Shown here: positions 47,886-50,714 of the stretch, in pieces
Layout of the letters: each line of letters opens with the position of its first letter
How positions within the stretch are numbered: the first letter of the stretch is position 1
From: Heliocybe sulcata
Taxonomy: Eukaryota > Basidiomycota > Agaricomycetes > Gloeophyllales > Gloeophyllaceae
Direction: 5' to 3'
DNA: 64,000 bases
Assembly (NCBI GenBank): GCA_004369045.1
Contig: ML213504.1
Span: forward strand, 839,508 to 903,507
The notes under the pieces: generated by a model
Databases searched by the model: none
Seen by the model: the letters and a program-made list of their open reading frames with translations, nothing else
What the model was told of the DNA's origin: nothing
Position numbers and translations under genes: made by a program

Positions 47886-49100
47886 TCACTCCATGTCTGC
47901 AAAGTCCCCTTCGTCAAGATCGTGGGGCTAGCACGAGGACTTATCAGCAATCCTGGCACTACGCAAGTTCACAACCCAAGGGCATACCTCTTTTGGCTCT
48001 TCGTCTTCTCCATACTGCATCGTGTAGTCAATATGACTCAAGACTGTCTCTATTGAATCCGAGTTGGTGAGGTCAAGGGGCAGGAACGACACCAGCGGGT
48101 GATCCTCGATCTTCGAAAACACAAACGCCATACCCCACCTTCGTCAGCCATCGTTCGATGCAAAACTCTATACAAGCGTGAAATGCGCACCAGTTGGACA
48201 ATAGCCTGATTTAGCGCATGGAACTTCGGATTGGAGGTCGTAGCGAGATCACTGGGGGTGCTTCCCAGCGGCGCAGCGATGAGTAAAGGGTCAGGGTCCA
48301 GATATCTCGCTACATCTTTACGTTTGCGGATGCCGTTCCTGCCAGAGGCGGGATCGTCGCTATTTGATGTGACCAAGTCCATCTTGGACATGATGTTGAT
48401 CCATGGGACTTCCAGGTTGACCATCGCGGACATGGCAGAAAGGACACCGCTATACAGTTCCAAGATCAGTATTGCAACTGAGGGATACAAAAGTCGGACG
48501 TACGCGAAGAATTTGTATTTGTCTTCCATGAATTGTGATTCCAGCAGATATGTTGCGCATACGCGGATGCTCATTCGTTGCAAGTCGCGTACGAGGGTAG
48601 GGAGAAAGGGGTGGTGGGTGTATAGCTCAATCTGGCCTCCAATGAGGGAGCAGTTCATTTGCTGTCCTGTATTACGGTACATGCAGAGACATACCTGGAC
48701 AGTCAAAAATGAGATAGTCATCCTCATATCCACCGAGCTCCTCCTCCAACCAGTCCATATTCTCCAGCAGATATCTACGCCATCCCGTCTGATTATCAGT
48801 CTCTGGTCTCCTCCCCTTCGCTCCAACCCACCAAGCTAATTGAAGCGCACTCACTCACTCGAAACAATACACCAGTCCCCCGTTCGGCCCATAGTCGAGC
48901 TCACCCATAACATCCTCCAGGCTAATCAAGTCACGAATGTCGATGACTGGCTCATACTCATGCAAATCCGGGTTGGCTGCGGGGTCGAGGTTGACGAGGT
49001 GCGCCGTGCGCTTCGAGGCGGAGAGGTGATTTAGCAGGCCGTTGCAGAAGGTGGATTTTCCGGCACCGGCAGGGCCGCAGACGAGAACGGCGTAGCGCAT
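47886..49100 (-). CDS. GPN3: GPN-loop GTPase 3
   Basis: Small GTPase that, with GPN1, helps assemble RNA polymerase II and bring it into the nucleus. The start at 49100 leads straight to the P-loop, [20 protein letters not shown]. Then come the switch region [24 protein letters not shown] with the Gly-Pro-Asn signature, [10 protein letters not shown] and, across introns, [20 protein letters not shown], and SKMDLVTSN (guanine specificity). The final intron must be removed: YGEDEEPKE is joined to [13 protein letters not shown], ending at 47886, which fits other fungal GPN3 tails; without it the frame runs to 47928. About 290 residues in several exons. The divergent neighbour PYM is now 983 bases away because of a transposon. 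Confidence 0.95.
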
Positions 49101-49237
49101 TCTGGCTATTCAAGCTGTCAGACGACCTCTGAGAGTAGAGAAATGGATGCGATTCCAAGGCCTAAGTGTCCGAGATAAAGAGATCGAGAGGAGAATTTGT
49201 AACTCCGTCTGAGGCGATCACAGTCTTTATCCCGTTA

Positions 49238-49287
49238 CACAGCGGGAGTTGCACCATTTCGGACGTTACGATATGTTAGTCAAAATG
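49238..49287 (+). repeat. Left terminal inverted repeat of the element
   Basis: Begins CACAGCGGGAGTT and matches the reverse complement of the right end for about 50 bases with a few substitutions. Homology fades after about 49287. Confidence 0.85.
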
Positions 49288-49968
49288 GAAATCAAATCTA
49301 TTTAATTTTGTAATTGATTCCGTAACCTGCAAAACATATTATTCTCGAAATCCTTCATAGCTCCCTACATATATTATCTATTGTAATTCCTTTGGCAAGA
49401 TTGTATAGAAGAGATAAAAATGCCATGCATAATGCCAATAATATATCTTCCTCTGCAATCAATTTAGGACATGACAAAATTTGGGATCTTGGGAGTTCCC
49501 TAAATGTTACTCGATAGATCTTTTTACTTGAACAATAATTCAATAAATACTACAAGATACATAATATCAGCTGCAAACACTGCCCGAAATGGTTATGAAA
49601 ATTATATATTCCGCAACCTTGCGAAAGGTATTGGCCCAGCCGTGAAATACCTTTAGACGTTCGGCTATAGCTTTACTTCCGGTATTAGCTTTCAGATCAG
49701 TGCAAATATATTTCTATATTTTAGTTTTATCTTTCTTTTTTGCAGTTGTGAAATATAATATTGTTTACCACATACTCTCGTTCCCTCAATGTTAAATTTG
49801 GCGATCTGCCACCAGCATGAGCCCGATGTGATATTTTGCAACACATATTGATATCATCAAAATATCGCATATTAAATGTCATTACAATGTTGTATTTAAT
49901 AAAATAAATTGCTATACATCTGCATCACCTTCTCAGTAATTATATCGGCTGCCGTCAAAAGCTAATCC

Positions 49969-49976
49969 TATATATT
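49969..49976 (+). promoter_or_regulatory. Possible TATA box inside the transposon, facing PYM
   Basis: TATATATT lies 115 bases before the PYM ATG, within the element. If used, PYM transcription would start near the right inverted repeat. This rests on position and match only. Confidence 0.3.
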
Positions 49977-49990
49977 TACTATGTCTAATC

Positions 49991-50040
49991 TATTTCGACC
50001 AACATATTGCAACGTTCGAAATGGTGGAACTCCCGCTGTG
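49991..50040 (-). repeat. Right terminal inverted repeat of the element
   Basis: Reads outward to GGAACTCCCGCTGTG at 50040, followed at once by the TTA duplication. It ends 43 bases before the PYM start codon. Confidence 0.85.
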
Positions 50041-50083
50041 TTATATTCCACCATCGCTCGAAGCCTCCGAAACATTTACGGCC

Positions 50084-50714
50084 ATGTCGCGCACTACTCT
50101 ACCTCCCGTCAATCCAGACAAATCCCTAGCAGGAATAGCGGTGGACCCAAAGACACTCGAGCGTGTCATCCCCGAATCACGTAGGCCAGATGGCTCGTAC
50201 GTCCTCTCCTAGTGGCCAACGTAGCTTGCTATATTCACATCTACCCTCCCGATCGCTCCTTTCATCTTGCAACACACAAAGCGTCCGCAAAGAACTCAAG
50301 GTCCGACCGGGCTTCACGCCGCAGGAAGACGTGAAGCGCTTCCGGGGCACCCGCCAGGCGCAGATGGACGCCCACCAGCTCCCGAAAGGCCAGATCCTTG
50401 GCTGGGTCGCGCCCTCCTCCGCTTCCACCTCTAAACCCAAAGCCGCAGCGGCGACAGAGGGCCAGTCGGCGCTGAGCAAGAGCGCGGCGAAGAATGCGAA
50501 GCGGAGCGCAAAGAAGAAGGCGCAGAAGGAGCAGGAGCACCTGGAGAAGATCAGGGATAACTGGGAGAGCAGCGAGGAGGAGAAGCCTGCTACGCCCAAG
50601 GCTGCTGCGAAGGGCAAGGAGTCGGAGGGTGGCAGTAATACCGGGGACAAACCAGACGCCACATCTGAGGCGGAGGCGTTAGCGGAGGAGCTCGACAAGC
50701 TCGAGGTTAAGTGA
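50084..50714 (+). CDS. PYM1: PYM (partner of Y14-Mago) / WIBG homologue
   Basis: Cytoplasmic factor that binds the Mago-Y14 pair and removes exon junction complexes from mRNA at the ribosome. Two exons (50084-50196 and 50282-50714) give 181 residues. The Mago-binding domain is at the N-terminus: SLAGIAVDPKTLERVIPESR, RPDGS joined across the intron to VRKELKVRPGFTPQEDVKRF, then PKGQILGWV. The C-terminal half is a Lys/Ala/Glu-rich helix (KSAAKNAKRSAKKKAQKEQE) and an acidic tail, as in other PYMs. Its start fits the family well; the frame upstream is the transposon. Only about 40 bases of original host DNA remain between the element and the ATG. Confidence 0.93.

Follow-up and report, generated by a model that had tools for sequence, protein, structure and literature searches.

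An AT-rich element between GPN3 and PYM of Heliocybe sulcata is very probably a gene-less derivative of a fungal EnSpm/CACTA transposon

The locus

The window (the whole stretch of Heliocybe sulcata DNA that was analysed, 64,000 nucleotides) contains an AT-rich block between the start codons of two divergent genes, GPN3 and PYM. The locus raises the question of what kind of sequence this block is, how it came to lie there and from which start codon PYM is made with the block in place. The features that define the site are the following.

48855..49100, minus strand: N-terminal coding stretch of GPN3 (Pfam and PDB matches), ATG at 49100
49235..49237, no strand: left copy of the target duplication, TTA, read from the sequence
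49238..50040, plus strand (orientation taken from the left end): 803-bp element, very probably non-autonomous and EnSpm/CACTA-like
49238..49289, plus strand: left terminal inverted repeat (TIR), CACAGCGGGAGTTGCACC..., carrying an ATG that points outward, 20 bp in from its tip
49989..50040, minus strand: right TIR, ...GGTGGAACTCCCGCTGTG, from the inverted-arm comparison
50041..50043, no strand: right copy of the target duplication, TTA, read from the sequence
50084..50196, plus strand: first exon of PYM (PF09282 positions 2-14), ATG at 50084

GPN3 was recognised by PF03029 (E 8.5e-27) and by its top PDB match, GPN-loop GTPase 3 (E 5.7e-20). PYM was recognised by the Mago-bind domain PF09282, which is divided between two exons (profile positions 2-14 and 14-27); a donor GTACGT at 50197 and a second exon from 50282 were placed by eye. 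A crude ORF scan, which is not a gene annotation, gave one divergent pair only, namely GPN3 and an inner PYM ORF.

The GC content is 0.341 in the element versus 0.534 across the window. The inverted arms measure 53 nt, are 87% complementary and lie 699 nt apart; the outermost pair is part of the TTA copies and the other 52 nt are inside the element. An 803-bp AT-rich element with inverted ends of about 50 bases and a TTA duplication, as described in an earlier note on this DNA, was thus confirmed at 49238-50040. Start codon to start codon, GPN3 and PYM are 983 bp apart with the element and 177 bp without it and one TTA; the coordinate arithmetic reproduces the 177 bases given in that note. The host bases that remain number 134 on the GPN3 side and, counted from the second TTA, 40 on the PYM side, where about 40 had been claimed.

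A dispersed family with 3-bp target duplications

We searched the genome (31.6 Mb, 51 contigs) for relatives of the element. The TIR sequence of the family is CACAGCGGGAGTT, with CAC..GTG as termini. A 22-base TIR pattern had 58 matches (55 exact, three with one mismatch) versus none for the backwards control, indicating that the repetition of the ends is not due to chance. BLAST of the element returned 13 near-full-length copies of about 800 bp, i.e. the window copy and 12 others at 91-95% identity. There are also relatives of about 1.17 kb, larger members and many longer or broken ones, and the window element is one among about thirty relatives in the genome.

An exact 3-bp target duplication was present in 21 of the 23 two-ended copies counted; the two misses were L008, which has one end truncated, and L023 (TAC/GTA). 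Outside these 23, the duplications of the C6 and C16 members match, and mismatches were found for L014 (TAT/TCA, with the ends 9.4 kb apart) and for an end pair on C27 (TAC/TCA). The matching duplications have T as the first base in 16 of 21 and A as the last in 18, and any base can stand in the middle; the rule is thus close to TNA and not TTA. They include TTA (4 of 21), GAA, AAA, CGA, TCT, TTG, TGG, TGA and TCA. The TTA duplication reported earlier is therefore present at the window copy, but TTA is not the target rule of the family, which duplicates 3 bp, mostly TNA. The same note had proposed that the block is a transposon and had named ends not repeated elsewhere in the genome as evidence to the contrary. 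As the ends are repeated many times genome-wide and the copies have target duplications of their own, that objection falls and the proposal is supported.

The window does not hold the sole divergent pair that was hit, since L007 is flanked by ANTH (minus strand) and SURF1 (plus strand) and L003 by AATase (minus strand) and PB1 (plus strand). L004 has RPL24e as a neighbour on one side. Copies that interrupt a host coding segment were not seen, with a gene prediction that is crude: the codon-usage gene finder is weak and served only as a pointer. Around positions 1490-2320 of L007, the host sequence TAATTGCTTTCT is present on both flanks, beyond the 3-bp duplication.

Class of the transposon

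Very probably, the element arose from a fungal EnSpm/CACTA transposon by internal deletion; it is non-autonomous (MITE-like) and was inserted in the shared GPN3-PYM promoter. The assignment is carried by the CAC..GTG termini, the 3-bp target duplications and a related member with a Tnp2-type transposase. PMC12730594 regards CAC..GTG ends with 3-bp duplications as consistent with EnSpm. With the CMCT clade of fungal EnSpm (CACTA), as described there (PMC12730594), the family shares these ends, these duplications and a Tnp2 gene (PF02992), the latter in the member on contig C6. The window copy differs in being without a gene, and its class is read from termini, duplication and the linked Tnp2.

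Other readings of the block fit less well. A position between two housekeeping starts would also suit an old, selected regulatory spacer that is not mobile, a reading to which we attach next to no probability, contradicted as it is by dispersed copies at 91-95% with different 3-bp duplications. The TTA at the window copy, found in four of the 21 matching duplications, would be expected of a PIF/Harbinger type with TTA/TWA target preference. However, duplications such as GAA, AAA, CGA, TCT, TTG, TGG, TGA and TCA do not fit a restriction to TTA/TWA, the ends are CAC..GTG and the linked transposase is PF02992, which makes this type highly improbable. Plavaka transposons are represented in the genome by 39 matched stretches of the transposase PF18759, an abundance that would point to Agaricomycotina, going by the distribution given in PMC12730594; the ends given for them in the same paper, TGT..ACA or CATCA..TGATG, differ from the CAC..GTG of the family.

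The element has the properties of a MITE in being short, gene-less and multi-copy, with TIRs and target duplications. MITEs are short, gene-less deletion derivatives, and the family shares with them a short AT-rich body, TIRs, target duplications and a multi-copy spread at low divergence, whereas 803 bp is at the long end and the copies in this size class number 13 here and not hundreds. An open stretch in the PYM frame at 49940-50083 is read as chance and not as a transposon gene. No paper on this transposon family was recognised in a literature search. As a transposon the element, gene-less, EnSpm-type and intergenic, is ordinary.

The C6 member and the proposed origin of the short forms

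The C6 member has its ends at 556341 and 588066, both of the variant GTTACACC and with TAT on each side, and a Tnp2-family gene (PF02992, E 6.4e-9, a Pfam match) close to the right end. The stretch of this gene used as query has one full-identity match in the genome, its own, and the next match is at 43%. The right 498 bp of the member are 85.5% identical to a 1.17-kb copy, with an additional 38-bp match nearer the gene, and the left ends of the C6 member, C51 and C9 are 81-82% identical to the 1.17-kb member over 319-488 bp. We regard the C6 member as the best candidate for a master, its interior being largely unread. A single giant element of 31.7 kb at C6:556341-588066 was rejected: the ends are alike and TAT is found on both sides, but 561668-576500 reads N and the sequence examined excludes 576501-587599.

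Two positions in the window element relate it to the longer forms.

49639..49646, no strand: junction at which about 375 bp of the 1.17-kb form are absent (element 402|409), from alignment to L018, L019 and L022
49663..49671, no strand: GGCTATAGC, the uninterrupted form of the site at which L016 carries an 8.3-kb nested insertion (TA duplication)

By alignment the 803-bp form is the 1.17-kb form minus about 375 bp. We read the 1.17-kb form as a C6-type element without the gene and the 803-bp form as the product of this further loss; the forms grade from a relative with Tnp2, by way of the 1.17-kb form, down to the 803-bp form. A Tnp2-type transposase that acted on the ends in trans would have mobilised the window element, which would then have been inserted into the 177-bp promoter shared by GPN3 and PYM.

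Long members

A different parent was considered in L016, the 9465-bp copy on C9, whose internal transposase would then move the family. In favour of this, L016 has both family ends, a target duplication (TTG) and, in our own reading, an intron-rich transposase-like gene, the exons of which had no Pfam match when searched exon by exon. However, a core of 8291 bp (L016:859-9149, CACC..GGTG) lies between duplicated TA, and its site is uninterrupted in 22 other loci (803-bp, 1.17-kb and C6 members), mostly as GGCTATAGC, with base changes in L013 and L028 and a 5-base gap in L022. A TA-flanked core at a site that is intact in 22 loci indicates that another transposon has inserted into a 1.17-kb member, and a 1.17-kb member matches the first 800 and the last 374 bases of L016 with a 2-base overlap. 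L016 as the autonomous parent, a very unlikely role in our estimate, was ruled out by this nested 8.3-kb insertion, and the C6 member stays the better candidate. According to PMC12730594, TA duplications are a feature of a group called ESTA. The nested core is at C9:4858-13148, carries the intron-rich transposase-like exons (DDVSGNSTKQWN...) and has one relative, at 74%, on C37.

Two further long candidates were rejected. C16:716471-728429 was taken at first sight for a 12-kb autonomous member and is instead an old member (target duplication TGA) with a putative Ty3-like LTR element; the Ty3-like reading of the insert was made by eye, the identical repeats measure 176 bp and the locus examined, L040, covers C16:716900-726800. 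C27:220162-250679 is not one element, as the flanks TAC and TCA differ. The interior of a C51 member (L026) and a C27 region (L013) adjoining other family ends have 4.1 kb in common at 97.6%, with weak WD40-like coding.

Outward start codons in the inverted ends

An ATG that points outward, 20 bases from the tip, was present in 57 of the 60 ends examined (the exceptions being L008 left, L012 right and L027), mostly in the context GAAATGG or AAAATGG and followed by an open MV[Q/E]LPLC. When 58 ends of 32 elements were scanned, five first host ATGs of recognisable genes were found within 65 bp.

+32: YggS-like gene at the C13 copy (PDB search E 4.1e-10; Pfam without a credible family)
+41: oligoribonuclease-like gene at the C10 copy at 956643 (RNase_T E 7.9e-6; best PDB match E 7.8e-5)
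+44: PYM, TIR ATG in frame
+61: F-box-like ORF (matches below the Pfam cut-offs), out of frame, with a 32-codon TIR ORF running across its start
+63: SURF1 at the C1 copy (E 1.2e-42), out of frame, the TIR ORF ending before the SURF1 ATG

At three copies, those at PYM, the YggS-like and the oligoribonuclease-like gene, the TIR frame is open into conserved coding sequence.

L009 2787-3299: TIR frame continuing into the YggS-like gene
L012 1539-2030, minus strand: TIR frame continuing into the oligoribonuclease-like gene

At the oligoribonuclease copy the usual TIR ATG reads ATT, and another in-frame ATG is found nine bases further in. The starts of the YggS-like and oligoribonuclease-like genes are putative, as later in-frame ATGs are present and the matched domain begins well downstream. 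Two further ends, L041 and L042, lack an ATG-led ORF of 100 codons in the adjoining 65 bp.

In a more far-reaching model the TIRs would act as portable outward start codons: copies 30-60 bp upstream would capture the 5' ends of genes, and those that persist would be biased towards the in-frame arrangement, as an out-of-frame AUG would silence the gene. If this were true, PYM, the YggS-like PLP-homeostasis protein and the oligoribonuclease would carry N-terminal extensions of transposon origin, which in the YggS-like protein and the oligoribonuclease would precede an apparent mitochondrial presequence, judged by eye, and could switch localisation. We consider the model unlikely. Enrichment of copies near starts was rejected by a like-for-like control, in which one rule was applied to ends that have 400 bp or more of flank and to control positions from the window: ORFs of 100 or more codons, led by an ATG, were found within 65 bp of 4 of 54 ends versus 1059 of 17058 control positions (6.2%; P 0.43). 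In the absence of such enrichment the in-frame cases may be chance; three in frame out of five is a post-hoc count, for which a hand estimate of chance is about 0.06. The F-box-like start, out of frame and overlapped, argues against selection for frame, provided that transcription begins inside the element. Insertion in 5'-proximal positions is known from mPing-like MITEs. Some copies of the present family are likewise just upstream of genes, whereas enrichment near starts is lacking here, and the outward TIR ATG is the distinctive point.

Possible consequences for PYM and GPN3

For PYM two start codons within the element have to be considered.

49981..49983, plus strand: element-internal ATG, out of the PYM frame, with a 67-codon ORF that overlaps the PYM start
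50021..50023, plus strand: TIR-borne ATG in the context GAAATGG, in frame with PYM, which would add MVELPLCYIPPSLEASETFTA

A start of PYM inside the element could thus take a concrete form, the in-frame TIR ATG at 50021. The frame is open from a stop at 49937 past the PYM ATG and reads MVELPLCYIPPSLEASETFTA-MSRTTLPPVNPDK; with use of the TIR start the N-terminal peptide of the extended PYM would be MVELPLCYIPPSL....

The start region of GPN3 is probably retained. For PYM, initiation has to take place either in the last 40 host bases or inside the element, and the product would depend on where the RNA starts. With an RNA start at about 49984-50020 the first AUG would be the TIR AUG at 50021, giving PYM with an N-terminal extension of 21 residues; an RNA starting further up would meet the out-of-frame AUG at 49981, and others before it; an RNA starting in the 40 host bases would give the normal PYM protein.

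We lean towards the last case, with the element as a neutral bystander: PYM would be initiated in the 40 bp of host sequence that remain, its mRNA would never contain the TIR ATG, and a start at the TIR is the less likely alternative. The 40 host bases and the junction TTATATT remain, and an in-frame ATG is likely to arise by chance, with one frame in three suitable and an open run through 14 or more flank codons at 21 of 46 ends; the lack of enrichment just upstream of ORF starts (4/54 versus 1059/17058, P 0.43) points the same way. On the other hand, promoter core and leader would have only 40 nt, and what else belonged to the old promoter has been moved more than 800 bp away. Neutrality relates to what the insertion does to PYM, and it agrees with the identity of the element as an EnSpm/CACTA derivative. 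In one genome the same end lies a few dozen bases ahead of the first ATGs of several different genes, in and out of frame. This natural insertion set bears on whether a TIR can donate promoter and start codon, and it turns an ordinary element into a useful case.

Divergence and base composition

The 13 copies show pairwise differences of 2.6-9.8%, in keeping with expansion in the fairly recent past, and distances from the majority sequence of 1.4-7.7%. Relative to that sequence the window copy carries 34 differences (4.2%), which are unevenly distributed, many of them at 498-606 and 744-791. In trees built from uninterrupted, readable element halves (23 left, 24 right) its left half is placed in a young burst, and its right half is basal on a long branch. 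The odd right half is perhaps the result of conversion from another member.

RIP (CpG observed/expected 0.985 in the majority sequence of the copies versus 0.969 in the window) was rejected as the source of the AT-richness, as no CpG depletion is seen. The TpA/ApT ratio is 0.757 in the majority sequence versus 0.710 in the window. Among the C>T/G>A differences 46 of 135 are at CpG, a mild excess given that CpG bases account for 48 of about 282 G+C; methylation could be its source.
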